Source of the DNA: Escarpia spicata
Lineage: Eukaryota > Annelida > Polychaeta > Sabellida > Siboglinidae
NCBI GenBank assembly: GCA_963995525.1
Contig: OZ023209.1
Location: 16,951,807 to 17,015,806, forward strand
DNA length: 64,000 nucleotides
Reading direction: 5' to 3'
In this document: positions 520-57,813 of the stretch, one piece after another
Numbering within the stretch: the first letter of the stretch is position 1
How the letters are laid out: each line of letters opens with the position of its first letter
Made by a program: the position numbers and the translations under genes
Notes under the pieces: model-generated
Databases searched by the model: none
What the model was told of the DNA's origin: nothing
What the model saw: only the letters and a program-made list of their open reading frames with translations

Positions 520-747
520 ATTGCATGGTGCGTTCTTTTGGCAGTTAGCATGACTATGGCCACCTCACATAAAGAGTACAGTGTATACAAGTTCTGCAAA
601 TTGTGGTGCGCACAATCCTTCCGGATTTGCCTCCAAGATGATTGTCGTCGTCGTAAAAACTGGCCGCTTCCGGTCTCAGTGAAATGCGTCAATGAACGAT
701 CCGATTGCTTTAATAGGTGTCAACCATTCAAGAACGGTATCCCGTAA
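520..747 (+). CDS. Secreted cysteine-rich peptide, copy A (exon 2; exon 1 lies outside the window)
   Basis: This is the last exon of a small secreted peptide; its function is not recognised. It begins after the 3' splice site ttcttggcttgcag (ends 519) in phase 0, at the same place as the other four copies. The first ~14 residues (IAWCVLLAVSMTMA) form a signal-peptide hydrophobic core. The mature part has seven cysteines spaced C-x3-C-x6-C-x4-C-x13-C-x6-C-x3-C with WPLPVS between Cys4 and Cys5, and ends QPFKNGIP-stop at 745-747. It is closest to copy B (shared SVYKFC, WPLPVS, ER, CQP). Exon 1 must lie upstream of base 1. The open frame could also be read from TTG at 514, but alignment of five acceptors favours splicing. 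Confidence 0.75.
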   Translation: MAWCVLLAVSMTMATSHKEYSVYKFCKLWCAQSFRICLQDDCRRRKNWPLPVSVKCVNERSDCFNRCQPFKNGIP

Positions 748-2090
748 AAAGGAACAAGGAATGTGGTGAAATTATTAGTGTATATAAGGTGATGGCGTAG
801 CCAGTCAGTACATCAAACGTGATGACGTAGAGTGTATAGACGGTGGTGACGTAAACAGACGGTGTCGACCTCTAACCGCTACATTCGTTGTTACCTCGGC
901 TAAGGTAGTGTCCCATTGTTCACGATGCTATACTGTTTAGTTCACTCTGCGATGGCAGCTTGGTGGTTTATAACGTCGTATTCTAACTAGAGGAATCTGG
1001 CTAGATTCGCATTATCTTGGTGCCGATAAAATCGACATCGTTCACCAAAAATGTTCGCAATTAATTCATGTGTGTAAATGAGTATTTGTTAACACGTAAT
1101 GGTGGATTGTTGCGGCTGAGTAACTGCTGTGCAGTAATTGAAACGTGACACAATGCTTCCGGAATATGTTAAAATGGGGTTTGGCTGAATGTATGTCAGG
1201 AGGCAACAAATTATATATTTTTTATTAAGGTTCTGGTATTTGTACGACAAAAACTGAACTTGTGTTTACTTTTGATAGTTTTCTACATTCGCAAAACGAA
1301 CATTATGTCTTTGCTTGGATAAGATGTTATATATTTGTTTGCTAAACGTATAATGGCGAAGCACATGTTGAACATGGTGTAAGTATTATAATGCATAGCA
1401 GTTTGGCTTACGTGCTCTCAGCTTCGGATAATTTACTAACTACTTATGTCTTGCGAGCTGTCGTGCATAACACCTGAGGTGTGGAATGTTGGTACTTGCA
1501 AAGCAATCTTGTTGAACGTATTAAATTGTTCATGCACGTAAACACAAAATACAGGTATGTAATCGACTTACCGGTGAGAAACACCATAAACAGCAGAGGG
1601 GTGAATTGTTTGAAGACGGCTTGTATAAAACATGCCGACTATAGTATATTGAATGTCATGTCAACTCTGTGTAAATAATATGAATTTTCTTTGTTCAGTG
1701 TCGCGCCTTTGAATGGTAAAAACGATCTACTCATAAATAAGTATTCCTATACACAACATGACTCGTGAACATACGTGGCCGTCTTCATTAATTTTGCTCA
1801 CACGTACATTTCTTATTAGCATCGAGTAGACCTGTCACATGGTCAGTAATTTTATTTTAGGACGTGGTGTAACTGGAATTACAGCACAAAAATGGGTCAA
1901 CACTCACTTGACTGGATATAGTCTAGACACGTGTCAATTGATAAAACCAACAATTCTATATTGCACTCCGTGGTATTTAAGAGGTCAACGAGCGAGGATG
2001 ATAACTGAGAATTTGGTAGAAGATTGTCTGTTCCGTTAACAGGAGTCGACTGAGGTTACTAAACAATCTTCAGGATAGTTTTTGCTTAAA
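748..2090. other. Unassigned sequence downstream of copy A
   Basis: I see no coding similarity, RNA gene or clear repeat here. Short open frames at 1481-1678 and 1839-2039 have no recognisable motif. No good AATAAA lies close behind the copy A stop, so its 3' end is unplaced. Confidence 0.5.
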
Positions 2091-2094
2091 TTAG

Positions 2095-2306
2095 TAATTT
2101 TAATTTTGACGTATCCAAATGAACATTACCTGGTACCTGCTTTCGTCTGACTTAATACGTCGACATCTTCAGTACCTATGACGCTGCATGATGTGATGTG
2201 TATGATGACATCATATATCGTCATAGGTATTGAAGAAGTCTATCTGATACGTCAGGCGAAAGCCTCCACCAGGTAAAATTCTTCTGGATACGCCAAAAAT
2301 GAAAAT
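2095..2306. mobile_element. Foldback / MITE-like inverted repeat
   Basis: Two arms of about 75-80 bp (about 2108-2182 and 2220-2294) are imperfect reverse complements. Paired landmarks are gacgtatcc / ggatacgcc, acctggt / accaggt, ttcgtctgac / gtcaggcgaa and acctatgac / gtcataggt. A ~37-bp AT-rich spacer separates them. There is no coding capacity. A perfect 12-bp palindrome, gttgacgtcaac, lies just beyond the right arm. Confidence 0.6.
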
Positions 2307-2900
2307 GTTGACGTCAACTAAGAGTTACTTACCTTTATACCAGAACGCTGTTTGACTCCGTTGCACTGTACCAGACTTGTGTGTTGACGTGTGTGAACAA
2401 GATTATTCAAAGGAATTGTGGGTAGGGGCGTATATTTCTGCAATATTATGCGTCAGTTATGTCTACTGGCAGTTTAATATTTGAATGTTTTGTTTACGAC
2501 TTGAACATTTTGCGGGCGGAACTTTCAAATCGGGCTTACTAAAGTCGATTAAACGGGAGGAATGCATGCAACTATATGTTATAGTGTTATGAACAATATC
2601 ATAAATAAAAGTTAACAAACGAGGAACGGACATCATGCCTTTGATATCTGGGTAGATCGCGCCCATAGGTTCCTGCTGGTTGTTGGTCTAGGAGAAGACT
2701 GACACCAAACGGAGGACATTCCATTGTTCATTTGTCCCGCCGTGGACAGCACCCAGGGTTACGGGAACCTGTAAACCGGGGGTCGGTGGCCATGCAGGCA
2801 GCACGGTATGTTGGGATGGAAGAGACAAAGAACATATTTCTCAACGCACAACACAACAGCATATGGGTATCGTTCACAATTATCGACATTTACCTATAAG

Positions 2901-2971
2901 TACTCACTCACTCACTCATTCACTCACTCACTCACTCACTCACTCACTCACTCACTCACTCACTCACTCAC
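2901..2971. repeat. (ACTC)n microsatellite
   Basis: Near-perfect tetranucleotide array with one interruption (cattcact). The open reading frames through it are repeat artefacts. Confidence 0.9.
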
Positions 2972-3909
2972 ACATAGTCGTCTTCGTACCCTAGGTGTCA
3001 CACAAGGCTGGAAGGTCGCCAGCTTGTGTGTTAGTTTTACTGTCAGCTTCCAGCCCTCACAGCTACAGCGAAGTACACTAAGGACGTTACCATTGTATAG
3101 TCTCAGTTTAGTTATCAATCTCAGCTGTCTTGACTGCATGATGGATTTCAGCATGGCGAACGCTTGGCTGCTTTGTTGATTCTAGCTGTGACGAGGTCCA
3201 CATAACGGGTAAAATACGATTCCAAAAAGTGTTGCGCACATCTGTGCCAAACGACAGCAGATAGGGTATCGATGGAGATGTATTTGAATACTCTTTACAG
3301 TTGTAATATAGTTAAAATACAATTATGCAGTAAATGGCATAGTTTCACTTATCTGGCCTCTATACTAAATGTATAGTATTATTTTTACCAAATAGTTCAG
3401 TTTTTATAATGTATAGAACTTATTACATTTCCCAGTCATGTCAGTTACTCCACCTTGTAAAGTGTGTTCAATTGTCTTTCCATCGATACATCGTTTTCTA
3501 TTGACTGCCTACTTTGTGTTGATGAAATTGTGCACAATCTATTCCTACCCCTACCTGTACTACTCACGCCACTAGTAAAAAACCACCCAACACAGTGCAG
3601 CGTTTTCCATGTAACAAACAAACGAATTTCATACTTATATGTTAAAAGCTTCCTAAACAACATCCTTGCTTAAATTACCATGAGGGGGAATGGGTGTATA
3701 TACCTCGCCGACGGACTACAAGTGGGTAAGCAATGCATGTACGACGGGGGACGCATTATAAATTAGTTACTGGCATACACATTCCTCATGTCACAACGAA
3801 GCATTACCAATTGTTCACTTGTTATTAGCTATTATTGTTAGCTACGTATCGCTAGTTAACATTTTTCTGACGGTAATTGTACCAGTGCTAAATATTCAAT
3901 TAGTGTATG
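2972..3909. other. Unassigned interval
   Basis: No gene, RNA or repeat family recognised. Short open frames on both strands have no motif. Confidence 0.5.
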
Positions 3910-4776: not shown

Positions 4777-4842
<66 letters not shown>

Positions 4843-6180: not shown

Positions 6181-6242
6181 TCTCCCTGTGTACGCATATA
6201 CGCATGCACGTATGCACATATGAACGAATTTACTAATTCACT

Positions 6243-6560: not shown

Positions 6561-6660
6561 GTCTTTTATGTTCGCGGATAACCCGTCTTTCAATTAGTCT
6601 AGCAGTACTTAACCTTTTTTTGGCACAGTTACCTCTTGAGGAAGCCAACAAAACCGTAAT

Positions 6661-8950
6661 AATTAACCTACCATCTCATAATACCAAACCCGCAAATAGA
6701 ACATTTTTGTAAAGAACATTTAGTAGCATAATTGATCATTGTATTAATTTATTAGTAAAATAGAACATTAGTTATACATTGGCTTCCCAACTTATTAACT
6801 ACAAAGTATGATCAAATGTATGACAGGCGATACTACTTTACAGTTAAAAAATGTCTGTGTATGGTCGACGTTGCATCATCTTTATAGACTTTGGGGTGCA
6901 ACGCTTTGTTACAGCTAGAACCCATCACAAGTCATTTGCAAGATCTAACATATTTTGTGTCTTGGGTTTAATGCTGATCCTTGTAGAAATGCAAATTCTT
7001 CACAGCAATACATTGGGATGCGGACATGAGGACAGTGAGAGGTCTGTCAGAGGGAATTGAGTATTTATAACCAGCCTTTTGTCAGAACGTTACCAGGTTA
7101 GAATCCTGAAAGTCTTCTCTCGGGGTCTTCTCGCGGGCGAAGGAACTCGTATTTCGGTAGCCTTGCATTCTTCTCACAGTGTACCAGGTGCATGAAATAT
7201 ACATTATACATGCACTCTTACTCGACCAGAAAAAAAATTGTATGCAAGGACAGTTAAAGGATTTAGTCACCATCATTGTAAACTTCGCTGCATACACATA
7301 TGACTATTTTTCAAGCTGTGTTACATTAGTGGCGAACAGAATACGTTCGTGTCTTAAGCAAACAATAATCCCAGCTAACAAAAACACATTCCCAAACAAT
7401 ATACAATATACATATGTTACCAGGTTCACATTTTAAATTTGGGTTTGTCATGATCGTAACATACCAAAAACGTAAAGCTTTATGCATTGGTGGGTGGCCG
7501 TTTGCACATCACCCACCCCATTTTCTTCTTCTTCCCCTTGCTCCCTTGCGGGGTGGGGTCCACGTCACTTGGTAGCTTATTCTACTTTTCTTATCAGTTC
7601 TTTCTCTCTCTCTCTCATCCGCAATGTCCGTCCATTCATGGCTGTTTACGCCAGCCCTCCCCCGGTCTCATTTTATGCTGTCGATCCATCTCAGCCTTGG
7701 TCTTCCTCTCCTTCGTCTGCCACCCTCTTCTACTTTCCATGCTCTTTTCGCCAGTTAGTCTTCATCCATTCTATGTACATGTCCCGTCCATCTCATTCTG
7801 TTACCGGTTACTTTCCTCTTTAGGTGTTTTTTCATTAAGGTGCCCAGTTACCGCAGTGTACCACAAGGAGATCATGCCAGAGTCTTGTCTATGGAGAGGC
7901 TATGTACCAGCAGGGGAGGCTTGCGCACTCATGTCCCTTTTAGCCCTTGTGAAAGGGCTAGCTGGCCTTCGCAACTGAAAGCGAGAGCAAGAAGCGCATG
8001 CACTACAAACTACTCACTACGCTGCGACACTAGACACGTCACACAGACCTGTGCTCGCATCACACCACTGATCATGTATAAATTCACGTAGACCTATTGG
8101 GAACATCAGTACCGGGCCGTAGGGTGACATCTTGGTAACCGTGTCGCGTCGGTTGAAACCGGCAGCTATTCGCTGAGGTATTGGAAGCCATTTTTGTAAA
8201 AATATTTTTAAAAATTATTAAGACTCACACCTCGTAAAGCTGGGGTGATGGTGTCTTAAAAAGAAAATTAGATAAGTTTTGTGGACTTTGCGAACTGATG
8301 AGACCACACCTAAGTACTGACCAAACTACATATGGGAAGTTTGATGGTGCTCTTAAGTTCAAGTATTTACAGTCAATATAAAACTATCACGATATCTATA
8401 AATACACCCATCGTACTTTTTTTAAATAAATTAACTGATAATGTTGTCAACTAATTCTGCCAGCTCGTTTTTATGGCAGCAATGTATTAATAAAGGAACA
8501 AGGTAGTTGCACGAGGTGGCATTTTCCCCAAGGACACCATTCGCGTTCGTGTAAGACTTCAATTGAGTGTCCGAACGTGTTGAAACGTGTCGAGTCTTTC
8601 CTGGGTAACGAGTCAACTTGAGCCGTTTTAATGTTGACTTTCGGAATATGGGCAGTGACTGCGGCTGCACGTATTGCGGGAGCGCTGGGCTGTATTGTTC
8701 CACATACATAAGCGATTGGCAATGACGACTTGTTTACTATTACTTTGTCGTTGCCGTGCGACACAGCTGAACACTACTTATGCAACTAGGTTTTAGTACA
8801 CAGCGACTTTACGACTGCCAATCCTACGTTTTAGTGAGTTGAGTGTCAATTGTACGACTTTGCCGACAAACAAATCCGATTGACCCAAGCAATAAGCTTT
8901 TAGCACGATGCTCATTTTATATACAACGACGGATCTACTAGCATTAGAAA
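6661..8950. other. Intergenic sequence between copies A and B
   Basis: No recognisable gene. Open frames at 7482-8091 and 8431-8764 are low-complexity or overlap each other on both strands. Exon-1-like sequence for copy B is proposed just to the right. Confidence 0.45.
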
Positions 8951-8959
8951 GTCACAGTG

Positions 8960-9999
8960 ATGGCTCTAGAAAAGCAGGTAAGTGTTTGCCCGGTGGGGAT
9001 GATACATTGTATATGTGCCATAATCAACTGATTTCATTAGTGTGTGTCAGATGTTCAGCTCTCCGGATTGAAATTGTTGTTTTCGATTCCATGCCAGAAT
9101 TGCCCTTGATACAAAAGCTGCAGCATTGTTGTCACGATATTTGTAAGCTTTTAGTATGCAATTAAACTAAACGCGATGGTTAAAAATGTCTAAATTTGCA
9201 TTTATGTTTACATGTTTATTAATAATTGATGCGAGTATGTGTGCGTGTGCGTGTGCGTGTGCGTGTGCGTGTGCGTGTGCGTGTGCGTGTGCGTGTGCGT
9301 GTGCGTGTGCGTGTGCGTGTGCGTGTGCGTGTGTATCTTACAACTCATTTTATACATATTACCACGAAAGATGTGAGTGTAATTTAACAGTTTGACAATG
9401 TTGAAGTTTTAAATAACAGTTAGTAAATATGACATGTTCAAATGAAAATAACAGTGTTAACTGTTGACTAGTTAAATTGTTAAACATGTTGATTGAGACG
9501 ATGATGTTCTTTGCCACTAAGGTGTTCATCTATGTTTCGCTGGGATTGCAAAGTGAATTCATGCACATCAGGCAATACAGATTATTATTATTATCATTAG
9601 CACTAGTAGCGGTAGTAGTAGCAGTAGTAGTAGTAGTAGTAGCAGTAGTAATAGTAGTAGTAGTAGTAGTAGTAGTAGTTGTTGTAGTAGTAGTAGTAGT
9701 AGTAGTATAGTAATAGCAGTAGTAGTAGTAGTAGTATTTGTATTAGTATTAGTATTATTTTCTTCTGCTTGCAGTTAGCCGTGTATGCTCTGTTGGTCAC
9801 GTCCGCGTGTATTGCCACGGCTGATGAACCGGTCAGCGTGTACAAATTTTGTGTACGAAAATGCGATAACGCTTTTTTCGTGTGCATCCAAGAGGATTGT
9901 CCTGAGCGAACATGGCCGCTTCCGGTCTCGAGTAACTGTATTGAGGAAAGGACGAAATGCTTTAAAACTTGTCAACCGTATAAGATACGTCATCGGTAG
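8960..9999 (+). CDS. Secreted cysteine-rich peptide, copy B
   Basis: Proposed two-exon gene encoding about 80 residues. Exon 2 (9775-9999) follows tcttctgcttgcag in phase 0. It encodes a hydrophobic signal core (LAVYALLVTSACIATA) and a seven-cysteine domain, C-x3-C-x6-C-x4-C-x12-C-x6-C-x3-C, with CPERTWPLPVS. It ends at TAG 9997-9999 and is solid. Exon 1 (8960-8977, ATG plus five codons ending AAGCAG) is a weaker inference: it is followed by a consensus donor GTAAGT and keeps phase 0, but it does not match the 15-codon exon 1 of copies C-E. The 797-bp intron contains GTGTGC and TAG microsatellites. Copy A is its closest relative. Confidence 0.65.
9238..9334. repeat. (GTGTGC)n microsatellite in the copy B intron
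   Basis: About 16 near-perfect hexamer units. The CACACA open frame through it is an artefact. Confidence 0.95.
9580..9755. repeat. (TAG)n microsatellite just upstream of copy B exon 2
   Basis: Imperfect trinucleotide array ending about 20 bp before the copy B 3' splice site, so it occupies the branch-point region of that intron. Confidence 0.9.
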
Positions 10000-15577: not shown

Positions 15578-16439
15578 TGGATGAGACACCACAAGCCTAA
15601 GGTCACACCTACATATAGGAGCTACACAAGGGAAAATAAAATATCCAGCAAAGGGAATAAACTCCCATGGGGCTATATGGTTGTGTAGAACATATCTAGC
15701 CCACCTGTAATACAAATGCGTTGCATAACCGTGGAAGTAGGAGTGTTTATTGATTGCGATCATGCGGCCACGCGGTAAACGTGACATGGTTACCATCGTC
15801 AGCTAAGCATTTCTCCCTCTCATTATGAAACCTCCACATAGTGTCGGCCTTTGGTACGAAAACGACTCAGACTTGTAAAGAACTCGTCGTATCAGCAGGA
15901 AGCTCAGTGTGCGGACTGTTCACTCCAAGTCGTCAACGGCAATGTTTGAACTGGTGAGTTTCCAGTTGTTTACTCAAGGTATGAAGATTTCACAGTTTAC
16001 GACCGATGACGCAGTGACAATAGCGCGCGTCATCGCATGCAGTAGCAGTAGTTGTACCTTCGACTTGTTAATTGGCTCCTAACATAGGCTTTTGTACGTT
16101 CTTAATTTACTTTACTTTGCCTTACCTTTCTGTAGTTGTTTTTCCAATGTTCTATATTGATTTTTACCCTATTGTTGTTATTGCATGCGTCGTATTAGAC
16201 CCTAATATGCTTCAAATTTATCATAACTGATGTTCAAATGTCACGTTTCGCAAGCGGCATGAGTCTTGTTTACGTTATTCCTTCTGTCGCTTGTCTTACC
16301 AGGACACCAATTAACATTATATCAGTTGGTAGATGTAATTAAGTTTAATATATCATGAATAGTGTACAAAATAATGTCAATATAAATGATTTACAACTAA
16401 TACGTAAATATGAACAATCAACGTTACCGAGCATTGTTA

Positions 16440-17332: not shown

Positions 17333-17680
17333 GCTTATCAACGTGTGAAACGTGAGTGTGTGCGTGTTACATGCCTACGGTAACATTTTATTATTGACAA
17401 CGAGAATGTCTCAGAAATTAGATGCGAAAGATAGTAATACCTTCGTCGAATGTGTTTGTTTTACAGCTTTTTGTGTGCGCCTCTTTCCTCGCCACAGTGA
17501 CGACGCCCTGCTCCGCCAGCGTGTACCAGGTGTGTCTGGATGCCTGCGACATCGTCTTCTCTAACTGCCTCAAGCGTGAATGTCCGGGCGACGATGGCCG
17601 GTTCCAGTGACACAGAAGTGCATCGATGTACGGTCTGACTGTATTGAAGGATGTGAGGCATTTAAGATTATGGATTTGTA

Positions 17681-19311
17681 AATGTAAGCTGAAAACAATC
17701 CTACTAGACAATGTTAGATATGTGTGAACTGGACTACACTCCGATGTCAGTCGTGTAATATGTACCAGGCATATCGTTTAGTATTATTTATATAGCAGAT
17801 CTGTCTCGCCTTGCAACACAGGTGGTGTATTAACATTACGTAGTGTGCGAACTACAGTGAGCGTCGTTCCGGTACGCTGAGAAATATGAGGTGTGACATT
17901 TGCTTACAAACAGATACAATACATCGGCAAGTGTGGCTGAAATGTATGCACGCCACCTACTGAATGCGAATGTGTGGAGTGTGTTTTCATGTGTGCTGTT
18001 ATGTAACTTGCAATTAACGTCTCAAAACCTCTCATTTTGCAATGTAACGTACACCCTTACTAGGGAACGTTACACAAACAACATACAACTGGAATGTAAT
18101 GTGTTGCTACACTTAAAGTTTATACGAAGACAAAAGACATAGAAGACATGACACATTTTCACTAGTTAGTGTTATTGGTAGAATGTGCTCAATCGTGATA
18201 ACCAGTCTTTCGCATGGATATATTGACATTGCATGTGTTCCTTTGCAGGGCTCAGGGCAACTGTGTACTTGTCTTCAGCAATTGTTGTTAGTTGCTTTCA
18301 TTTAGTACGAGTGTACATACTAATAAAACTACCTCCCCGGTTAAACTGTATATATTTATGTTAGTTATACTATATAATCATTTATGTGTGTACAAATAAA
18401 GCGTGTTGCTTTCTTCTGCAATCTTACCAACTTGCTTCGACATGTGTTAATCTTTTAAAAGTATTTAACTTGGTCGACAACTCACCTGCATTGTCAACAT
18501 ATGCGTTTCCTATACTTAATCAATCTTGATATTAACCATTCTCGATTTCATGTGGATTCGTCGTGTGTTCCCTAAGCTATCACTTACACTATCTCTATAC
18601 CCGGATCTATTAAACGCAATCACCCACCACTATCTTCCTCTTCACGTGTTTTCTTTTGTCTGGTCTGTTGGCGTAATTTAATCTTCTTTATATAATATGT
18701 CTTCGTGTATCACTTTACATGTACTTCGTTCAAATGTGATGCTACCACGCGTCCATTATATTAGGTTCCCCGTTGTATCACAATTACATACTTCCACTTA
18801 GTGGCGCCTGTACCTAAAAGGTAAATCATCTAAAGACGCACGAGGCTGTTAAAATACTCCACTTAGTTGTAGTTGTTACTTTCCAATTTGTTTATATCGG
18901 TTGAATGCGGCTGACACTTTCCTTACTCTACAGCTTAGTTCACAGTCTGTTATTCTTTGGTTGTTGACGAAAATTTGAAGATTGTGTACACTTTCTACAG
19001 TTCCCACTTTGTTTCTAAATTTATTTATCCAAACAAATATAATGTAATGGATATATAATTTATTAATTGTATATATATTGTACGGTAATATATTGTAATT
19101 ATATATGTGAAAACAAATTGTGATCTGTCTGGATAAATAAAATGTTGAAACATCGTTATATATAATTACCATATTTTTATTTTTGTCGCGAATAAATAAT
19201 TACTATAAATATAGAAAAAATATTTACAAACAGTGCATCATAGTATAACAATTATTTGGTTTATATTATTTCGTGAAAACATAAACAAAAAAGTGTAAAG
19301 AAAAGCAATGG
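17681..19311. other. Sequence between copy C and the tRNA-like element
   Basis: No gene recognised. AT-rich short open frames at 18876-19172 have no motif. Confidence 0.45.
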
Positions 19312-19397: not shown

Positions 19398-20010
19398 AGA
19401 GAAATCAATTGACTGATTTAAGTTATTATGATAAATTGTACATGAGATTATACATGGTATTTTATGTAGCTGGATACAATATATGTTTGCTATGTATGTA
19501 TATTGGTGTAGATTATCTCCCGTTGGTTGCATTCGATATAATTATTCTGAAAACGAGCCCAAGCTCGGCGAAACCTAGTCGACTTGTAGGCCCATTCGCA
19601 TTCATTGTTTTGAATAAAATTGGATTCATGTGGAACCATAAAATAACTGCTTGTTCTTCTACGATTACTAGTGTTTGTATTACATGGGAATATTGTACAA
19701 TAACTCATTCTCACGCTCGTTTCGACCCAAAAGCTATCCTTGTAAACATGCTCTGAATGCTTGGAAAGGGTCGGCCTGATACGAGTGTGGGTCATACGGG
19801 ACGTGACGATATCACGTGATCGCCTAGCTCACTAATTTTAATTTTCCGCGGGAATCGCTACACAGACGGGTTTAAAATCGAATTTATGCTACAACTGTAT
19901 TTTTCTGAATTTTTTTATGTTTTCGAATGGTGCATACAATATTAAACTTTGTGTACACATGGAAAACGGATTTTAGCTAATGCCTTGTTTTGATTTCCAT
20001 TAAGTGCAAT

Positions 20011-21742
20011 AACGTATATAGATCAAATCATGTCTATGACACAGTCTTTCAAACCTAGACTTGGCGTTATTAAAGATGAAACGGGAATGACTCTGACAGA
20101 AAGCGATGACATACTTGAAAGAAGGAAGCAATATTGTGAAAGCATGTTTAAGAAAGAAGAAACAGAAGAGGTAGACATGGATGAAGGCAGAGAGGGGACA
20201 GAACCAGAAGATGAACTTGAGCCTTTGCGTTCAGAGGTGGAGTGGGCAATAAAAAGTCTAAAAGACGGAAAATCACCTGGCACTGATAACATCACTGCAG
20301 AGCTAATAAGAGCAAGTGGAGAAGCAGGCGTGGATATCTATCACACATTATGCAAGAAAATATGGAGAAGTGGAACATGGCCCATGGACTGGAAACGAGC
20401 CATCCTTATACCAATACCGAAAAAAGGTGACATACAAGAATGCTCAAACCACAGGACTATATCCCTCATCAGCCATGCGAGCAAAATTATGCTAAAAATC
20501 ATAATGAAGAGAATCACAACAAAATTAGAATGTGAAGTCAACAGAACACAAGCTGGTTTCCGGACTGGAAGAGGAACAAGAGATCACATTTTCAACCTGA
20601 AGATGTTAATTCAGAAATGCAGAGAATTCAACCATGACCTTAGGATCTGTTTCATAGATTATTCAAAAGCTTTTGATAATGCTAGTCATCAACAACTCTA
20701 GAAAACCTTGATTTGAACAGAAAATTACATCACCTATCCAAAATGTATATGTTGGACAGCAGTCTGCAGTGAGATTAGAGTGTGGTACCACAGATTGGTT
20801 CCCAGTCGGCAAGGGTGTGAGACAAGGGTGCATTTTGTCCCCCCACCTATTCAGACTATACAGAGAGAATATCATGAGAGAAGTCGAGACTGACACGAGA
20901 AGCAAGTTTTTTAATGGACTGAAAGTGAATGGACAGGAGATATATGAATTGAGATATGCCGATGACATAGCGTTAATATCAGATACAAAAGAGGGATTTG
21001 ATAAACAGATAACTACTGTTAAAGAGCACAGCGAGATGAAAGAATTGAAACTAAACGTAAAGAAGACTAAGATTATGGATGTGAAGGGATGTCGAGAACC
21101 ATCAGAAGTCACAGTAGATGGCGAGGAAATAGAACGAGTGGAAAGTTTTGAATATCTGGGGTCACTGATAGAAGCGGATGGAGATGGGACAAAAGAGATC
21201 AAGCGGAGGTTGGAAATGGCGAGTAAAAAGTTGACGAAGATGAAGAAGCTGTGGAAAGCAACGAACAAAGATATGAAATTACGAATTATCCGAGTCTGCA
21301 TAGTTCCAACGGCTACATATGGATGCGAAACCGGGACTCTTAGTAAGAACATTACTAAACGTATAAATGCATTTGAAAACAAGTGATATAGAAAGATATT
21401 ACGAGTTCCGTGGACTGAACGCAGAACTAACGAATCCATCGCAGATGAGCTTGGTGTTATACCCGGGACTTTATTGAACTTTGTAAAGAAACAGAAACTA
21501 AGTTATTTCGGCCGTGTGAAACGGCATCAGTCTCTAGAGAGACTAATAATGAAAGGAAAAGTGGAAGGCAGAAGAAGCAGAGGAAGACCTATGAGACAAT
21601 GGGGAAGGACATAGAGGAATGGATGGGAGCCGACGTCTGGCGAGTGGGGAGACTGGCAAACGAAAGAGCTGTCTATAGACAATCCATCAAGGCTGCAACG
21701 TCCGGAAATGGATAAGCAAACCAAACAAAAACGTATATAGAT
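20011..21742 (+). mobile_element. 5'-truncated LINE with 13-bp target-site duplication
   Basis: The element body (about 20024-21729) is bounded by the direct repeat AACGTATATAGAT at 20011-20023 and 21730-21742. It has an A-rich end, as expected of target-primed reverse transcription. It encodes only RT and the C-terminal tail. There is no endonuclease. Confidence 0.85.
20030..21720 (+). pseudogene. LINE reverse transcriptase (RTE / CFDP2-like type)
   Basis: Frame 1 (20030-20701) has DGKSPGTDNITAELIR, ILIPIPKKGDIQECSNHRT, TQAGFRTGRGTRDHIF and ICFIDYSKAFDNASHQQL-stop. Frame 2 (about 20760-21386) has GVRQGCILSPHLF, the catalytic ELRYADDIALISDT, LNVKKTKIM and FEYLGSLIEADG. The tail continues to about 21600 with ILRVPWTERRTNESI and RGRPMRQWG. 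A stop at about 20700 and a frameshift separate the parts, and a further stop follows FENK. The YADD core is intact but the protein is broken. Confidence 0.85.
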
Positions 21743-23424: not shown

Positions 23425-25758
23425 ATGCGGGCTGTCTGCTCCAAAAAATCTACAGTCACTTTTGAACTGGTGAGTTTCCTGCTGTTTATGCAATGTTGTC
23501 TGATTACAATCGATAGCCCAGTGACAACGTAACATGCAGTATCGTTGTACACTCATGTTTATTTATTTTGTTTTACTGGGGGAGGGTTTATTCAAGTTCA
23601 AATAAAATGTGCCTCTGTGTGATTTTTTCTTTGATGCCGTCCTCACAGGTTCATTTAAACTAAACATAGGGAGTGAATTTTGGGTGGAATTGTGATAAAA
23701 ATATAAACTAATCGTTCCAGGCGTAGGTTAATTTAAATTGCTAATTGTTAATTTAATTAATTAACTTTCTCGAAATATGAAAATTAATTTAGTTTAATTT
23801 TTGTCTGGAAGAGGCTAATTTAATTTAATTTAATTTAATTGACAACATCTCAATTCACTTTCAATTAATTATGTTTTAGTTGGCAGTTTTTAGCATTCCT
23901 TTTGTGATAGTCACTGATCTGCTGTCACCATAGGTATCTCACTTGACATCACACACAGTACCAGACACAGGTAATTGTTTGAATAGTCTCACTGTCCAGC
24001 AAGTGTCAATAAGTGAAAAGGGTCCACTGGGAGTATGGCAGTGGGCCTACCTGGCAGTGTACTGTGTTATGTAAGAGTACTGACTACTTTTATGACTGTT
24101 ATCAACCATCCAAGTACATGCAATACATAGGGTATCTGGAGTCTGGAACTGTTTAGTGTAGCTGGAAAAATATTTAGTGCTGAAAGATGCTGGTTTACTG
24201 ACAACTGGGATTATCTGTTTGAACTGTTTGAACTCATGTTCTTGAAATGTAATACATGATCTGGTCCAGACAGTGAACACTGGTTAACAACAGCCTGATG
24301 AACTAATACTAGTTACAGTACTCATTTGGTACAGTTATGTCTATGTATTCTTAGAAAACATTTATTATATGTGTTAATGCTGTCAATTAATGAATTGTTG
24401 TGTGTTTGCCTGTTTTGTTCCCACATAAAGTTGATTGTTATTTGAATTAAAGTTAATTATTAATTTAATTGAAGTTAATTGAAGTTAATTGAAATTAATT
24501 GTTAATTGAATTAAAGGTCATTGTTAATTTAATTTAATTAAGAAAATGAGAGGATAATTTAATTTAAATTAATTGACTTATAAATGTGAGAGGTTAACTT
24601 AATTTAATTTAACTGGGACATTTTCGAGTTAGTTGTAATTTAATTTAGTTAATTAACTGTTTTCAAAGTTATTGCCTAATGCCTGAATCGATCAATATAT
24701 AATATGTTCATAACATTATATTTGCATATGACAAATTCATTGGTACTTAACTTGTTTTGTTTAACACATGTGCTACCACAATTGAAACGTCCACTGTCAC
24801 TGTACTATGCTTTTCTCTCCCGCGCCACTCTCAGCTGTTCACTCCAACCATTTAAAGATATCCCTTAAAGCAATTTCCATCTTAGTTTCGGTTTTTCGGT
24901 TTTCCTTCTATACCGTCTTCTGTTTTCCATGGTATATTGGTTAAGCTTTCCTTACCCATTCTCTGTGTGTGTTCTGCCCACCCTCAATTTGCTCCCCAAA
25001 ACGTTCATTTTCATGAATTTTGCCGTTCCGATCTCTTCACTTAATTCCAAAATCACCCTTCTGTGTTTTTGTGTAAGTTTACGCCTTAATAGAACCCAGC
25101 TATCCAATGCATATCCTCTTCCTATATGAACCAGAGCAAGTATTCACATCAAATATACCCAAACTGGTACAACGCAGATTTCCTACAACTTTCCCTTTAA
25201 CTGTTTCTTAAACGCGAATACAGTCCACCTTCTCGACTACTTCCTAGCTTGTTACACACTCCTAGCTTGTTACACACTGCTAGCAGTGTGTAACAAGCTA
25301 GGAAGTAGTCGAGAAGGTGGACTGTATTCGCGTTTAAGAAACAGTTAAAGGGAAAGTTGTAGGAAATCTGCGTTGTACCAGTTTGGGTATATTTATATAT
25401 ATATATATATATAAGGTTGTCCAAATGATAACGGCATTTCTTTCGACTATTGCAAACAATATATATATATATATTTATATAACTACACTAATGCTAGTTT
25501 ATTTGTTTTTTTCAGGTTGTTGTCTATGCCTCTTTGTTCGCCATAATCACTACCACATGCATCGCCTCAGATGGTCATCGCAGCACCATGTACGAGCGAT
25601 GTATGGATGGGTGCAGTATGGTCTTTTTCAAGTGCGTCCAAGAAGATTGCCCTGGTCATTCGTGGCCGCTCCCAGTTCCTCAGAAGTGCCTCACTAAACG
25701 GTCAAGTTGTATTGATGGATGTCGGCCATTGAAACTTCTTGACAGGTTTCGTCGCTGA
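23425..25758 (+). CDS. Secreted cysteine-rich peptide, copy D
   Basis: Two-exon gene, 95 predicted residues. Exon 1 (23425-23469) encodes 15 residues starting MRAV, ending FEL, and stops at CTG|GTGAGT. Exon 2 (25516-25758) follows tttgtttttttcag in phase 0. It encodes the hydrophobic core VVVYASLFAIITTTCIA and the domain C-x3-C-x6-C-x4-C-x12-C-x6-C-x3-C with CPGHSWPLPV, then a basic tail (RFRR) and TGA. Residues before Cys1 are DGHRSTMYER. Copy E is the closest paralogue (shared MY-RCMDGC, FF, HSWP, GC-P-KLL). Export is predicted from the signal sequence. The 2,046-bp intron contains TTAATT-rich tracts and a 245-bp palindrome. Confidence 0.8.
23710..24665. repeat. TTAATT-rich tracts in the copy D intron
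   Basis: Repeated taatttaatttaa / gaattaaagtt segments at about 23720-23870 and 24430-24660 flank more complex sequence. They look like two related AT-rich arrays, possibly ends of a decayed element. Confidence 0.5.
25151..25394. repeat. Long near-perfect palindrome
   Basis: Left arm 25151-25279 and right arm 25280-25394 are reverse complements with almost no mismatches (aaatatacccaaactgg ... ccagtttgggtatattt). The left arm has one extra 18-bp tandem copy of ctagcttgttacacactc near the centre. It sits about 120 bp before copy D exon 2. Confidence 0.9.
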
Positions 25759-29977: not shown

Positions 29978-30979
29978 TCATTCCTCAATAAGCCTCTTCG
30001 GCCGAATACCAAAATTAACGCGGGTCGAACGACGAGGTACCAAGGGCTGATCAACAGGGACAGGCGGTTCATCATTCATGGCTTCGTCAACGGAACGGGC
30101 AAGTCGGGAACACCGTTGTCGTATTGCTGCTGATCCGTTTTTGTAGGACGTTAAGTCGCGAATAGTGCAGAATGCTTCAGATTGCGCTGGCGGTTCGTTG
30201 TTGGAACGGAACGCGACTTCAGCTGATCTTCGTGTCGGCGGCAATGTCCATCAGGTCCTTGGACAATGAACATTTTCTTTCCGGCATGACCAGTCACTTT
30301 TCCAGCCACTAATTTTGGACGATTTTTTGTGAAATCTCTGTAATGGGCATATGCACCGTATTTCGGCTTGGCTGGCAATGTTGATTTCTTCTTGTTTTCT
30401 CTTTGTGCACATGTTGTTGTAGAACGGAGAGAGAAGACCGCAGCTGGTGTCCGAGCATCAGTTCAGCTGGAGTACGACGAATACTGCAATTTGGAGTGAC
30501 ACGGTATTGCTGGAGGAATTCTAGCAATGCCAGATGTTTCGACTTCCTCTCCCTTCTGACAGCTCGTTTCATGGCAACATGCCGTTCAGCTTCACCGTTC
30601 GATGGTGGGTGAAATGGCGCAGAAGTGCGATCGAGTGTGCATTGCACCAGTCAGCGAACGTCTTTGCGGCGAACTGCGGGTCATTGTCTCAGGCAGGCCC
30701 CAGCAAACAAGTCATCGAGCGCGGATGTAGTAGTCTCCGATGTCGGATATTGTTTAATTTAAGTACGTGCGGCCATTTCGAGTGGGCATCCATCACGACC
30801 AACCACATGTCATCTAGGAACGGACCGGCAAAATCAATATGAGTGCGCTGCCATGGGCGGTCCGGAACGGGCCATGCAGACAGATTTCCAGGTTGATTTG
30901 GGCTTGTTTCGGCACAAGCTGTGCAGTTCTTGCAGTGGGCGGCGATGTCGACCTCGATATTAGGCCACCACACATGCAT
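29978..30979 (-). pseudogene. Gypsy integrase and pol C-terminus
   Basis: Readable segments are an HHCC-type zinc finger and core start (30979-30689: AAHCKNCTAC, WQRTHIDFAGPF, VVMDAHSKWP), a later core segment with PPSNGEAERHV (30647-30309) and the C-terminal tail ending RRSTRVNFG (30244-29978). Frameshifts separate all segments, so no integrase can be made. Confidence 0.85.
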
Positions 30980-32543
30980 GCGTGCGAGCGAGTGACTTCG
31001 TGCGCACTATTCCAATGTGCGTCAAGTGCAGCATGTTGAGGACCCTAGCACGAAGTGTAGTCGGAATTATGACTCGGGATTCGCGTAGAAGGACACCATC
31101 CTTCGATGTGATCTCCGTCTGGGCGTTCAGGTAAGTACGGACTTTGTCCTTATCCTGATTATGCGGCCATGCAAAGAAGTTTAGCACCTTTGTCAGAATC
31201 TGGTCCTTTCTGGTGTAGTCGGCGACGGTTTTCGCAGAGAGCGGCAAATTGAGAATGACCTGCATGTCGAGCAAGTTCACTTCATTGTCGATTTCGGCTA
31301 TGCTCTCCTCTTTGTCGAAGTTCGGATCGGGACCAATGGGCAGGCGAGACAGAGCATCTGCGTTGGCGTGATGAGCAGACTGTCTGTAGACGATGTGGTA
31401 ATCGTAGCCCATCATTATCAGTGCCCATCGCTGCAGTCGCTGTAGCGTCATCACTGGTAAACTCTTCTCTGGATTAAAGATGGCCAGCAGAGGTTTGTGA
31501 TCTGTGGTGAGCTGGAAGTGGCGACCACTCATGTACTGATGGAATTTCCTCACACCGAAAATTATTGACAGTGCTTCCTTCTCCACCTGGCTGTAATTCT
31601 TCTCTGCCGACGTCAGCGTTTTGCAGGCGATGGCGATCGGTTCCTCAGTGCCATCCGGTGCACACTGAGAAATAACAGTCCCGATGCCATAAGACGATGC
31701 GTCGGCGGCCAGAGATATCGGCCTAGTTGGATCGTAGTGGACCATGCGCGTTTTCTGGGCCAGCATCTCCTTCAGTCGGTTGAACGTCCATTTGGCGCCT
31801 TGTCTGCGCAGTCGGTTTAGAGGGGCGCAGATGGTAGAGAATGATGGCAAAAACTTTCCGTAATAGTTCAGCTTGCCGATTAAGCTTTCCAGCTGTTTAA
31901 CGTTCTCGGGCGTCGGAAACTTGACGATGGCGTTGACGCGTTCCTCAGACGGTTTGAGACCATCTGCTGAGATCAAATGTCCTAGGTATGTGACCTGCTG
32001 TCGGAAGAACTCACTCTTGTCAAGTTGCAGTCTCATTCCATACTCGTTCAACGCAGAGAGGACCTGCTTGTGGTTTTGCAGGTGTTCTTCCTTCGTCCGT
32101 CCGGTGACGATCGTATCGTCCAGGTAGGCAGTCACATATGGAATGCCGGAGATCATATTATCGACTAACTTCTATAAAATGGTCGACGCTGGTGCCGGTC
32201 CAAACGACAATCGATTGTACCGGAACAGTCCTCTGTGCGTGTTTATAAAGAGTGGTTGCTTAGTGGCGTCATCTAGCTCTACTTGTAGATATGCGTCGGA
32301 CATGTCAAGCTTTGAAAAGTGCTGACCTCCTTGCAGCTTGGCGAACAGTTCGTCTACCCTCGGAATGGGGTGCTGATCTACGTGCAGCTGAGGATTTACA
32401 GTCACTTTATAGTCTCCGCAGATGAGCATTTTTCCGTTCGGCTTCTGCACGACGACAATGGGCGTCGCCCATTCACTGTGATCGACACGAATTATGATGC
32501 CCAAATCTTCGAGACGATGTAGCTCTTTGTCAACGGCATTCAT
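30960..32543 (-). pseudogene. Gypsy reverse transcriptase-RNase H
   Basis: Two in-frame blocks (32543-32172 and 32156-30960) are separated by one nonsense codon just before the KLVDNM segment. RT motifs include WATPIVVVQKPNGKM, FSKLDMSDAYLQ and the catalytic AYLDDTIV. RNase H follows with SLAADASSYGIG, SQVEKEALSII, LTTDHKPLL and NADALSRLP. The 398-residue block is otherwise open, implying fairly recent insertion. Its end (HLTHIGIVRTKSLAR) is the start of the integrase finger, then the frame shifts. Confidence 0.9.
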
Positions 32544-32579
32544 GCAACTGAATGGTACTGGTCTCGATATCTACAACGC

Positions 32580-41575: not shown

Positions 41576-42700
41576 GTCACCAACGCACTGCTGGGCCGAT
41601 ATGCACCCTCTCAGTTGCCTGAGTCATGCAATGACGTAGCCTTCGCTGAGACATTTCAACAGTTTTCCGTCGAGAAGCTTTCAAACATACGTCGTGTAAT
41701 CGATTCGGGCGCCGAGACGAACACTCGATCGACAGACGTCTGACGATTACCAACACGCGCAGCTCTGAGAATTCACGCCGGCATCGACTACATGCAGACA
41801 TCAGACGGGTCGTCCTCCAGTCGTCTGCGAAATCCTTCGACCTTCACCCGATGCCGACGAGCCCGGCTGAAACAAAACATCGACGTACTAGCACCGATTC
41901 TTACAGACGTCTTCAACACGTCACTCGAATCGGGCGTCGCACCTGCGGTTATGAAGCATGCATTAATGACACCGTTACTCAAAAAACGCGGTCTCCACGT
42001 CAACTGTCTCGCTAACTACCACCCGATATTGAACTTACGTTTTCTGTCGAAGACGCTAGAATGGTATGTTGCAAACGAATTACGCCGCTATATTGACACC
42101 AACGGCTTCAACGACCCGTTCCGGAGCGCGTACCGGCCCAGACACAGCACGGAGACGGATGTAGTCCAATTACACGAAGACATTCTCATTGCCAAGATAC
42201 GAACAAGCCTGACTATTACAACGTGCAAGACTCTTGTCCACTCCCTTGTTACATCACGGCTCGACTACGGGAACGCTGCTGTGTATGGCATCTCCGACCG
42301 CCTCTTGCAGATGGTGCAGCGCTCCGCGGCCAGTCGTGCTGCGAATCAGGCGGGGCAACCGGCGAAGCATGACGGCCCTATTGCGTTAGCTCGACTGGTT
42401 GCCCGTGAAATACCGCATTGAGAACAAGCTACTCGTCATTGTGTTTCGCGCCTTCCGCGATCGGACGCCGGCGTACCTCGCCTCGATTATCACGCCTTAC
42501 GTGCCGTGCCGCGCCGCGCCCTACGATCTGTCGACCGCGCGTTGCTAACCGTTCCGCGCCACAACCTCGAACGATATGGCCGCTGTTCATTCTCTTGCGC
42601 GGGGCCGACTCTGTGAAATGCGCTACCTGAAGATCTACGTCTGACCGAGTGCATGAGCATATTTAAAGCGCGTCTTAAAGGTAAACATAAGGGAACTTTT
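41576..42700 (+). pseudogene. L2-like LINE, part 3: reverse transcriptase
   Basis: Starts with ALLGRYAPSQLPES and CNDVAFAETF, continuing the frame broken at 32810. It then has LTDVFNTSLESGVAPAVMKH, LLKKRGL, LANYHPILNLRFLSK and FRSAYRPRHSTETDVVQLHE. The frame then jumps to TLVHSLVTSRLDYGNAAVYG and IENKLLVIVFRAFRDRTPAYL, the post-RT region. The central RT including the FADD box is deleted. Further frameshifts follow to about 42690. Confidence 0.85.
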
Positions 42701-53320: not shown

Positions 53321-53383
53321 TATCGACCGCACCACCCTAACTTCTAGAGAAGCAATTGTCATTGTAAGTGTAGAGAGCTCACT

Positions 53384-56300
53384 ATGCGAGTTGTACGCCG
53401 AATATCTTCAACGTCGCTTTTAGAACTGGTGAGTTTCAACTCAGGTAGAGTGGGATTATGTAGTCTGAATTGTATTTCAACTTCGTTTATCTCGTTTCTA
53501 ACGTTGGAGCTTTTACATATTGTCATGTACAGTCGTCAATCTATGTACAATCTACGACATCAGATAACACGTAAAAGAACAGCTTTGAAATTCCTATTCT
53601 GCCGTACATTGTTGCTGTGTTCCTGCAAACAAGTTACTTTTTCTTGATTGAAATCAGTATGTTTTATTTGACATTCTTTTAGTTAGTCGGCCTTTAGCAT
53701 TATTATTCCATTATTATATCGTCATCATCTACTCGGCTAGTAAAACGATTTGCATAAAAAATAATCTACATTTAGTAAGATATCTGCATGGTGTTAACAA
53801 AGGTATTAGCTCTTCGGCAGCTATAAGTTTATAATTCTCAGTTTTTAACAAGATTTAACAAGATTGCCACCCAGAGAATTAACTCTAGGTAGCAGGTGGA
53901 CAAGGAAGCCCTTGGCTTATCGAGAGTCCGACCCTTTTATCTATGTGTATCACGCCTTTCTGAGGTATGTGTCGATTTTATTTTTAAACATATTCACTCT
54001 ACTAGCACCCACACTGTTCCATTCAGTTACATTCCTTTGTGAAAATGAGAATTGTTTTATATATATAATCTACATTGCTCCTTTGCTAATGTAACTTCAT
54101 GTCCTCTAGTCTTTCTATCTTTCTTAACTGAGAAAAAATATTTCTATCAATATTTTCATAACCATTCATTATTGTAAACACTTCTAGCTGATCTCCTCTC
54201 AATCTCCTGGTCTCTAGTGTTGTTAAACCACATTCTTTTAGGCGTTTCTCATAACTAAGATCCTTCAGTTTTTGTATCATTTTAGTCGCTCTTCTCTGTA
54301 CTCTTTCTAACATATATATGTCTTTCTTGCGGTATGACCTCCACGCTTGTATACAATATTCTAAATGAGGCCTAACTATTGTTTTGTACAGCGGTATTAT
54401 TACTTCTTTTTCCTTATACGTTATATTTCGCCTAATTAATCCAAGGATTTGATTTCCCTTTGAAGCTGAAATTCCGCACTGCTCTGAAACCTTCATATCA
54501 GCACTAATGGTTAACCTTAAGTCCTTTTCTTTTACAGTAGTACTTAGTACAGTACCCTAATTATATATTCCACCTCTTCGTTCCCATGTCCTGTGTGTAG
54601 GCATTTGCATTTCCCAAAATTTAACAGCATTTGCCACTTTTCAGACCATTTGATCAACCTGTCAAGATCATCTTGTAAATGTTGTCTATCTTCATCACTT
54701 TTAATACTTCTAAACACTTTTGTATCATCCGAAAATTGCAACACCTTGCTTGTTATTTCATCGTTGATATATATTTAGAATAATGTAGGTCCTAGTACTG
54801 ATCCCTGTGGTACCCCACTCAATACCGATTTCCAGTTTGAAGCCTCCCATCTACTACTACCCGTTGTCTTCTGTCAATCAGCCATTTTTCTATCCAGTTT
54901 ATTATATCATTTCCTATGACATGGGCCTTTAGTTTAAGCAGTAATCTTTGATGTGGAACTTTGGCGAAAGCTTTTTGAAAATCTAAGTAGAAGATATCTA
55001 CTGGTGATTCCTCATCTACCCACTTAGTGATATCTTCCAAAAAATATAACATATTTGTTAAGCATGACCTCGCTTTAAAAAACCCATGTTGAGATGGGTT
55101 TATCAAGTTATGTTTAACAAGAAAATCCACCATGTGATCTTTAGTTAGTCTTTCTAATAATTTGCAAATCACTGATATGTTAAACTCACTGGTCTATAGT
55201 TATCTGACTTGTTTCTCGAACCTTTTTTAAATCACGGTATATATGTTTGCCTCTTTCCATTCTAAAGGAAACACACCTTCTTCTAATGACAAATTGAAAA
55301 CTGTTGCAAGCGGTACACAAATATCCTCTCTTTCCTCATTGCCCCTTCAATCACTGCCTCAGAGTAGCTCCATCTCCGGTTTGCATATGTCTGGTTGTTG
55401 TCTTTTCCCCTGCCGTCTTCTCTCCTGTCACATTCTCTTCCGATCCATTCTTTCCTGTCGCTTTTTCTTTTGTCACCGTTCCACCTGCCATCGTCCCTTT
55501 TATCGACTTCTCTTTTATCACATTTACTCTCACTTTCTTTCGTCCCTTCATCTTTACTACCATCTAATTTTCTTTTCTCCTCTCCCGTCCCATCTTCCCT
55601 CCCTCCTTCTGTACGGTCACTTTCTCCCCTGTCACCTTCACGCTTGTCACGTTTTCTGTTGTCGATTTTACAATTTCTTCCCCTCCAATCATCTTCCCTT
55701 CTCTCATTCTCCTTTCCTCAGTCTTCTTGCAAATGCTATTCTCCTTCAGTCTTGCATTATTCCCACCTCTCTCCCTGTCGTCTCTCTCCATTCCACCTGT
55801 TTCCTTGCTGATTCCTATCTCCATCCCCTTTAAAATAACTGTCAACCAAACTATGTCCTTCTGCAGACACTCCACCTTCCAACACCCCATGCACTGAAAG
55901 GTGAATCACTCCCCCCATGGTTTCTGCCCATGACTTCCCACAGCCGGACAATACAAAATCTACCCAGCTGTGGCAGTGATCGCACACCAATTTTCGCTTT
56001 GCCTTGACTTGCCGCTTGCAAGGCGCCATATCACTATCATAATTTATTTAATAACTGAACTAACTTAGTCTTTATAAAGACTGTTTCCTGTGTACTATTG
56101 CACACTTTATGTTACAGATTTTAATTACACAGCTGACTATCTATCCTATCACGAACACTAACATTACCGGTAGTGACCTAATTTAAATACAATCAATTAC
56201 ATTACGTTAGGCTGCTTTAGTTATTTAGATTACGCCGCGCCCTAACGAATACGAATGACACACTCTACATAAACAATCTGGAGTTCGCCCGACTATCGCC

Positions 56301-57813
56301 CTTGCTTAATTTTACCAACAATGCCTAATCAAAATATCTAGCAAGTATGTAAGTAGTTTTATGGTTGTTTCTTTATCTCCTATATATTCTACAACATAAT
56401 CAGGTTTGTTAAATTTTGTTTACAACTTATCGAAGGCTAAGTTACCCTATTATCATTCACTATACTAAAGTGTTCTAAAATACTAACTAGCCTTAAGCAC
56501 AACTGCTACTCAATATATGTTTACTGCAACTTTATGAATGATATTAAGGCAAGAATAATACTTATCAATCAGTAATTCCACTTGTTTATAAACTTTTCTG
56601 CACCACCAATTTCTACGATCTATCTCCGCCAAATATAGTCTCGAAGGAAAGTTATACATGTGTGACGAATGCAAGAAAATACGTACCTTAACAGGAATTT
56701 TATATTTGAGATAAATTCGTATTAAAACGGCCACATTCCTAAAACAAAATCGCAATATCCGTATTGAGTAAATGCCGAGCGATATGTCACGGCAGAACCT
56801 ACGCATAAGGTTTATCGGATAGAGGAAACAATTCCAGCCAATCCCGTCGTGTTTCACAAAGCGAAAGGTCATATATATCTATATATGATGTTTCCATCTG
56901 ACAAAAGCTGAAAATCTCAGTAGATTTGTTGTAATGATCACGTATTGCTCGCTCGACATTACGTTATTCCCTGTGCCTATAATGTAAACCGCATGTTGTT
57001 GTTTTTTCTCTCAAAAATTGTGAATCTGCACGTATGCCATAAAGAATAGGTCGAATTAGAATTCATGATTAACGAGATGAACATGCGACGTTACCGGTAC
57101 TGTAAATTACATATTAATTCGTGAAAACTTTACTTCTTTCCACTGATAGTGATGCGAAGAGGTATTCTCAGTGGTTTCTGTCAGACATGGCGTTAGCAAG
57201 ATTAGTTCCACTGATTATGGTAACCCCCTCCAAGGTCTCTTCTACAAGGGCCCTCGGGTTTTCATAGGAGAACTTTGTTTGTTATTTCGTCATGGCGCAT
57301 AACATGACCTACAAGACGGTGACGCTGCATCACAACGCTTGGAAGCCGTGGTAGGGTGCCGTATAATTAAGTCACGCAATTGTGACAAACAATCTATCTT
57401 AATGGCTAACCATTTATTTTATTTGAAGGTAAAATAACATCATCAATAACGTTAAAATACTTAGTGTTAGTATAAAAAAAGCGTTTTGTGTGAACTAATT
57501 AATTTTAAATATTTTCCTCAAAGTGCGCGATATTAAATTGTATATTTTAGATATATTGCTACCCGATATTTTGCTTGTTTTGCAGTTTATTGTATGCGTC
57601 TCCTTAATTGCGATGACCACGACGCCTTGTTCAGCAATAGACAACTACCGGACCAACATGTATGCGAGATGTATGGACGGATGCCGGATGTTGTTTTTCT
57701 TATGCGTCAAAAAGGAATGCCCTAGTCACTCTTGGCCGAATACAATTCCAAACAAATGCATCAAGGATAGGGCGAATTGTTATGAAGGATGTCTGCCATT
57801 CAAGCTTCTTTAA
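53384..57813 (+). CDS. Secreted cysteine-rich peptide, copy E
   Basis: Two-exon gene, 90 predicted residues. Exon 1 (53384-53428) encodes 15 residues from MRVV to LLEL and ends CTG|GTGAGT. Exon 2 (57586-57813) follows tgcttgttttgcag in phase 0, continues the hydrophobic core (FIVCVSLIAMTTTPCSA) and has the domain C-x3-C-x6-C-x4-C-x12-C-x6-C-x3-C with CPSHSWP, ending LPFKLL-TAA. The combined N-terminus has a basic start, hydrophobic core and small residues before a likely cleavage site, so secretion is predicted. The 4,157-bp intron holds a CR1 copy. It is the nearest relative of copy D. The domain is not one I recognise. Confidence 0.8.
53855..56040 (-). mobile_element. CR1-like LINE, copy 2, in the copy E intron
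   Basis: Minus strand: ORF1-like start (56029 downward: KRKLVCDHCHSWVDFVLSGC, a zinc-finger-like N-terminus), a low-complexity K/E/T-rich part, then a direct jump into RT (about 55325: LSLEEGVFPLEWKEANI; 55172-54819: SQHGFFKARSCLTNMLYFLE, IFYLDFQKAFAKVPHQRL; 54744: LQFSDDTKVF) and the tail (54496-54086: IVRPHLEYCIQAW). The endonuclease is deleted, with frameshifts elsewhere. The 3' end reads CAATCTTGTTAAATCTTG. Confidence 0.85.
56041..57580. other. Rest of the copy E intron
   Basis: No gene or repeat recognised. Confidence 0.4.

Follow-up and report, generated by a model that had tools for sequence, protein, structure and literature searches.

An unannotated tubeworm family of secreted-type seven-cysteine peptides in Escarpia spicata, probably laddered helical hairpins, that may act on microbes

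We describe here a real, sizeable, selected and unannotated tubeworm family of secreted-type peptides, brought to light by a stretch of 64,000 nucleotides of the Escarpia spicata genome (assembly GCA_963995525.1, contig OZ023209.1, positions 16,951,807 to 17,015,806, forward strand), which we call the window. The host is an Escarpia-type vestimentiferan: NAD2 of its mitochondrial contig, which was located through the COX1 family, when read with genetic code 5 is 100% identical to one E. spicata record across 97% of the query and 95% identical to a second, as against 83–88% for the best named records from other vestimentiferan genera, among the best 120 of 1263 matches. The window carries five plus-strand loci of the second, domain-bearing exon (copies A–E), of which A, B, D and E are intact and C is broken. 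Judging by the cysteine spacing, the mature peptide is probably a disulfide-laddered helical hairpin, and the family may help the worm to deal with microbes, perhaps including its symbiotic bacteria.

A first-pass annotation of the window had claimed five exon copies with a shared acceptor and phase-0 entry, a signal core, a fixed seven-cysteine spacing and a Trp-Pro motif, and all of these stand on closer analysis. An acceptor AG with a pyrimidine-rich stretch and a phase-0 entry is present at 520, 9775, 17467, 25516 and 57586, and the intact second exons run from 520 to 747 (copy A, encoding most of the signal peptide, the mature seven-cysteine domain and the stop), 9775 to 9999 (B), 25516 to 25758 (D) and 57586 to 57813 (E), each with seven cysteines. 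Their spacing is C-x3-C-x6-C-x4-C-x13-C-x6-C-x3-C in copy A, with x12 in place of x13 in B, D and E. In the broken copy C (17467 to 17681) the homologous sequence is spread over two frames, the first four cysteines sharing one frame, as had been noted, and the final three a second (E-values of the two domain matches, 2.8e-9 and 1.1e-10). The Trp-Pro motif reads WPLP in A, B and D, WPNT in E and WPVP in the second frame of C. A hydrophobic segment precedes the cysteine domain in the window copies, and the N-termini, judged by eye, are signal-peptide-like. The stop-free pattern matched four times in the six frames of the window and in none of 300 dinucleotide shuffles (matches with more than eight cysteines being omitted from both counts), which rules out a chance origin of the pattern. 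A profile scan of the window yielded no sixth exon-2 copy, the next best match having an E-value of 0.73.

For copies C, D and E we predict a two-exon precursor with a phase-0 intron inside the signal peptide, as the earlier models had proposed. When the plus strand was scanned for an ATG opening a frame of at most 24 codons that ends at a phase-0 donor, eight sites were found in the whole window, three of which, upstream of C, D and E, have GAACTG at the exon end directly followed by GTGAGTTT; these three first exons align along the exon length, and their donor is identical. Exon 1 has 15 codons and a phase-0 donor both in copy D (23425 to 23469, MRAVCSKKSTVTFEL) and in copy E (53384 to 53428, MRVVRRISSTSLLEL), and the homologous segment of copy C (15909 to 15953) carries the same donor at its end and no ATG at the homologous start position. 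The introns measure 1,513 (C), 2,046 (D) and 4,157 (E) bases. Moreover, P0124 of Lamellibrachia satsuma, to which exon 2 of copy D is 65% identical, begins with MRAFRYKLITANFEL and then continues with the domain; this start has the same length and the same ending as exon 1 of copy D, with 8 of 15 residues identical (counted by eye), so that the exon and its intron are supported from another genus, although by a protein that is itself hypothetical. Where both exons were found, the gene is predicted to carry the start codon and the head of the signal peptide on a short exon 1, and the remaining signal peptide with a mature domain of about 50–65 residues on exon 2. The candidate first exons of the other two intact copies are weaker: for copy A, MHKL with donor GTAAGT at 8843–8854 of L029, about 130 bases upstream of the window (intron 645 bases), and for copy B, MALEKQ with donor GTAAGT at 8960 to 8977 on the plus strand, for which no homologue was seen (intron 797 bases). 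Among 20 upstream stretches scanned with a matrix for exon 1, copy A had the one plausible site and L043 a weaker site that lacks an open frame; in most other subfamilies so scanned, a clear counterpart of exon 1 of D and E was not found.

The family extends well beyond the window, which lies on the contig that we label C5. Four protein queries against the genome of 1,060,511,957 bases returned, at E-values up to 1e-3, 30 places (copy A), 37 (a copy from contig C3), 15 (a divergent copy) and 39 (the copy on contig C1), and merging these by hand left at least 49 distinct exon-2 places on five contigs, a lower bound that excludes copy C and the fragments in L007 and L034. Contig C5 carries 28 places at 16.46–17.06 Mb and six at 46.17–46.30 Mb, contig C3 carries 11 at 47.90–47.99 Mb, and the rest are on contigs C9 (two), C4 (one) and C1 (one). 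The tandem arrangement claimed at first is borne out for clusters, whose copies are some 2–65 kb apart and occur in both orientations, and the copies are more numerous than had been claimed. Orientation divides the main cluster at 16.7 Mb: minus-strand copies make up 11 of the 12 places to its left, and plus-strand copies 14 of the 16 to its right. The third, divergent cluster lies about 29 Mb from the window (L058, L060–L063 and L068; contig C5, 46.17–46.30 Mb), and some of its members have five residues between the third and fourth cysteines. The sole copy on contig C1 (L024, C1:82147516) has two additional cysteines directly before the domain.

Across these places the cysteines hold their positions. 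The complete set of seven was found in 43 of the 49, that is in 29 of the 30 places retrieved with copy A and in 14 of the 19 others, the set being incomplete in L012, L050, L055, L056, L063 and L066; x5 replaces x4 between the third and fourth cysteines in L061, L062, L064, L067 and L068, and a few seven-cysteine places (L007, L021 and L028) are interrupted by a stop at some other point of the match. The odd fourth cysteine is lost in L055 and L056 (contig C5, 16845675 and 16843532). All 30 members scored follow C-x3-C-x6-C-x4-C-x(11-13)-C-x6-C-x3-C, an invariance that partly reflects the choice of rows, since the frame itself was used to locate exon coordinates. In alignment A1, which holds 22 of the 30 places found with copy A (omitting L007, L011, L012, L016, L021, L023, L027 and L059), the majority residues give C-x3-C-x3-F-x2-C-x4-C-P-x2-T-W-P-L-P-V-P-Q-x-C-x-D-x-R-x2-C-I-x2-C, and little else is conserved. 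Rates, charge and the tree rest on a set of 30 of the 49 places (omitting L007, L011, L012, L021, L023, L027, L050, L055, L056 and L060–L069), in which the exon starts of L051 and L052 were placed by eye, there being no clear acceptor; rows of L021, misaligned in the alignment for pairwise rates, went unused.

Copies A, B, D and E of the window are under purifying selection. In a codon model the ratio of nonsynonymous to synonymous rates (dN/dS, omega) of their mature part was 0.317, and neutrality was rejected (twice the log-likelihood difference, 2dlnL, 22.4 against omega 1), so that in the dN/dS check preset at first pass the value did not lie near 1. With the cysteines removed omega was 0.388 (2dlnL 13.2), and the signal part gave 0.284 (2dlnL 9.6); bootstraps of the mature part (60 each) spanned 0.13–0.52 with the cysteines and 0.09–0.64 without them, none reaching 1. 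The 30-paralogue set without cysteines, which is saturated, gave 0.401 (2dlnL 113), and all fits at omega 1 reused the tree and kappa of the free fit. A rate run under another model returned 0.287 (mature part), 0.424 (without cysteines) and 0.521 (signal part). In addition, four of five diverged close pairs show fewer differences in exon 2 than in the flanking DNA (18/219 against 45/328, 2/219 against 79/597, 23/222 against 21/158 and 17/219 against 48/377, L010 taking part in two of the four), and in a sixth pair, L026/L027, exon and flanks alike are almost unchanged (0/222 against 2/633). The second of these pairs, L010/L011 (contig C5, 16605283 and 16599270), may reflect either gene conversion or strong constraint.

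Several observations weigh against constraint on every member. In the fifth pair, L020/L055, where L055 has lost the fourth cysteine, the exon is more diverged than the flanks (27/219 against 24/281). A four-row set around L010 without cysteines is indistinguishable from neutral (omega 0.618, 2dlnL 2.6), the signal part of the contig C3 group has an omega near 1 (0.905), and that of L022/L026 shows dN 0.132 against dS 0.044. Pairwise Nei–Gojobori (NG86) ratios of whole exons in close diverged pairs are 1.05 (L010/L016), 0.68 (L020/L053) and 0.71 (L022/L026), and those of the mature part rise to 1.13 (L010/L016) and 1.06 (E/L018), most being lower; positive selection is not shown by these values. 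One might ask whether there is any working family at all, or only decaying repeats carried by transposable elements, given the repeat-rich surroundings and the broken copies C, L007, L012, L021, L050 and L066. For copies A, B, D and E decay is ruled out by omega, which is well below 1, and by the bootstraps; considering also how many places keep all seven cysteines, the lower divergence of exon than flank in four of five pairs and the relatives in a second genus, we find this explanation scarcely credible.

Relatives were indeed recovered from Lamellibrachia. A first profile search of proteins retrieved three among 301 candidates, all from L. satsuma, and a wider profile added, out of 112 candidates, two further proteins of L. 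satsuma and two encoded on unnamed metagenome contigs. The wider profile gave no other match up to an E-value of 10, with a recall so limited that it missed the three proteins of the first search, though they are in its profile; the absence of matches elsewhere is thus weak evidence, and the genomes of Ridgeia, Riftia, Osedax and Capitella were not searched. The five L. satsuma proteins (LSAT2_004053, LSAT2_004052, LSAT2_025886, LSAT2_005545 and LSAT2_001870), which bear neither a name nor a function, share the cysteine frame and a hydrophobic N-terminus, LSAT2_025886 being partial and lacking the first cysteine, and four of the five have a WP[LV]PV loop. In a tree of 37 rows, with 6 of 34 inner branches strong, the L. 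satsuma rows are spread over different Escarpia subfamilies, and for three rows the grouping is strongly supported (99/90, 97/93 and 100/99); since these are three separate strong subclades, the start of the expansion predates the split between Escarpia and Lamellibrachia.

The family had been called unrecognised at first pass, and Pfam, NCBIfam and the PDB gave no convincing match. In Pfam, copies D and E scored 12.2 and 16.2 bits against a cut-off of 27 and A and B had no match, while the best E-value among other members was 0.01, for DUF7014, which was set aside as weak. In NCBIfam, 5 of the 32 members of alignment A2 matched Lepto_8Cys (TIGR04453; best E-value 0.00095), member 1 scoring 17.9 bits against a cut-off of 34; this is a bacterial family, and we take the likeness as chance or as convergence on a similar cysteine spacing. 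Profiles A1 and A2 had no PDB match at E-values up to 10, and copy A alone had one at 1.1. As far as its sequences tell, the family is of a familiar kind and apparently has an undescribed cysteine framework.

Because the cysteine spacings mirror each other across the loop (3 then 6 ahead of it, 6 then 3 behind it), we suggest that the mature peptide would form an antiparallel helical hairpin pinned by disulfides between cysteines C1–C7, C2–C6 and C3–C5; C4, the odd cysteine, which opens the WPLPVP loop, would be free or would bridge two chains. Plotted on an ideal helix, each half has its three cysteines on one face, within 40 degrees. The odd number of cysteines counts against this reading, and a hydrophobic-moment test of the two segments gave no clear helical signal: values as high as the observed ones arose in 476 and 198 of 2000 shuffles, and in 1272 and 307 of 2000 when the cysteines were left out.

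The function of the peptides is the least certain step. Vestimentiferan tubeworms lack a gut and are sustained by bacterial endosymbionts, and such a host makes interaction with microbes more attractive to us than venom. Tentatively, and as a possibility that we prefer to each of the others, we suggest a large vestimentiferan family of secreted helical-hairpin peptides that would act on microbes, in defence or in the restraint of symbionts; a single fixed scaffold varied in charge and surface would broaden the range of targets, as it does among the NCR peptides of legumes and the BCR peptides found in aphids. Counted from seven residues before the first cysteine onwards, the net charge of the 30 members runs from -8 to +9, being at least +3 in 10 and at most -3 in 11. 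The same count also speaks against the suggestion, for 20 of the 30 lie below +3, unlike classical cationic antimicrobial peptides.

Diverse charge is also compatible with signals passed through water or by contact (pheromones, or proteins of settlement or reproduction), in which a laddered hairpin would come in many isoforms for recognition. No named pheromone, attractin included, was among the matches of the protein searches with the tubeworm profiles, and attractin has six cysteines at other spacings. Marine molluscs do use small disulfide-rich secreted peptides such as attractin as pheromones (PMC3484142), and we regard a signalling role as unlikely. The odd conserved cysteine, which invites interchain bonds, and the conserved proline-rich loop between the halves, which could be a binding loop, suggest instead a structural or enzyme-regulating role in the tube, cuticle or mucus, either as cross-linkers acting through that cysteine or as protease inhibitors with WPLPVP as the contact loop; the section on the tube in the genome paper of Paraescarpia lists a trypsin-inhibitor-like cysteine-rich protein (PMC8476170). 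The broad charge range and strong divergence of the copies, however, suit matrix proteins poorly, and no inhibitor family was among the Pfam or NCBIfam matches, so that we consider such roles distinctly unlikely. In layout, clustered and diverged disulfide-rich secreted peptides on a fixed framework also resemble toxin families, here directed at grazers or fouling animals. Yet no animal toxin family was among the matches, the only toxin-named Pfam match being the bacterial Ibs (E-value 0.13, weak), the mature-part NG86 maxima given above do not show positive selection, and tubeworms are not known to have a venom apparatus; offensive or deterrent toxins thus seem very improbable. Altogether we infer that microbial effectors come first, signals and matrix or inhibitor roles next, and toxins last.

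As the first-pass annotation had stated, the DNA between the exons is rich in repeats, made up of retroelement-like frames and simple repeats. Retroelement-like open frames lie at 19994–21386, 30960–32570, 41744–42421, 54086–54556 and 60646–61209, and we take them, by eye, to carry reverse-transcriptase-like motifs. Right after copy E, at about 58500–60000, there is a very long low-complexity array whose minus-strand frames encode SLTH repeats.

An open question about these gutless animals is the way in which they recognise, restrain and digest their symbionts. For symbiont control, the Paraescarpia paper describes immune receptors, cathepsins and digestion in lysosomes (PMC8476170), and a Riftia study speculated on antimicrobial histones (PMC6918071); in the sections consulted, neither the former nor the Riftia papers (PMC6918071, PMC8789280) name such a peptide family, and none of the titles listed in literature searches on tubeworm or vestimentiferan cysteine-rich peptides concerned one. 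An unannotated family of secreted-type peptides, under selection and common to two tubeworm genera, therefore offers a concrete list of candidates, whose interest hinges on the site of expression. Even with a different role, it would add a cysteine framework undescribed within the reach of our searches, a helical ladder of possibly three rungs and a conserved odd cysteine.

Finally, the family may be set beside known peptide systems. The small Tim (twin CX3C) proteins are helical hairpins with two CX3C motifs, mitochondrial and without a signal peptide, and have a shorter loop; the tubeworm family differs in that it may have a third rung and in its N-terminus of secretory type. Attractin of Aplysia, likewise a small secreted peptide, forms an antiparallel-helix ladder with disulfides I–VI, II–V and III–IV, to which the tubeworm ladder would be akin, though on seven cysteines. 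It has 58 residues, three intrachain disulfides and one copy per precursor (PMC3484142). Legume nodule-specific cysteine-rich (NCR) peptides, which may be cationic, neutral or anionic (PMC7230169), are a large lineage-specific family of secreted cysteine-rich peptides, as the tubeworm family, likewise with charges of either sign, may be; but they are defensin-like and nodule-specific with four or six cysteines, whereas the tubeworm family has seven at a helix-type spacing. Aphid bacteriocyte-specific cysteine-rich (BCR) peptides are described as secreted and aphid-specific, with a signal peptide, a mature peptide of 44–84 residues, no matches outside aphids and no obvious link between isoelectric point and activity (PMC6594739); they resemble the predicted tubeworm peptides in this build, and differ in numbering seven, with six or eight cysteines and a known expression in bacteriocytes. 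Of the traits common to NCR and BCR peptides, the tubeworm genes show an expanded family of small cysteine-rich products; their cysteine number is not even (4, 6 or 8) but mostly seven; and they have a putative signal peptide, judged by eye, with matches only among tubeworm proteins and unnamed contigs, within the limited recall and the genomes covered above. By analogy, gutless vestimentiferans might have evolved an arsenal of their own for symbiont control, which we think unlikely but worth stating: some 50 laddered hairpin peptides, on an unrelated scaffold with an odd bridging cysteine, that would be an animal counterpart to legume NCR and aphid BCR peptides.

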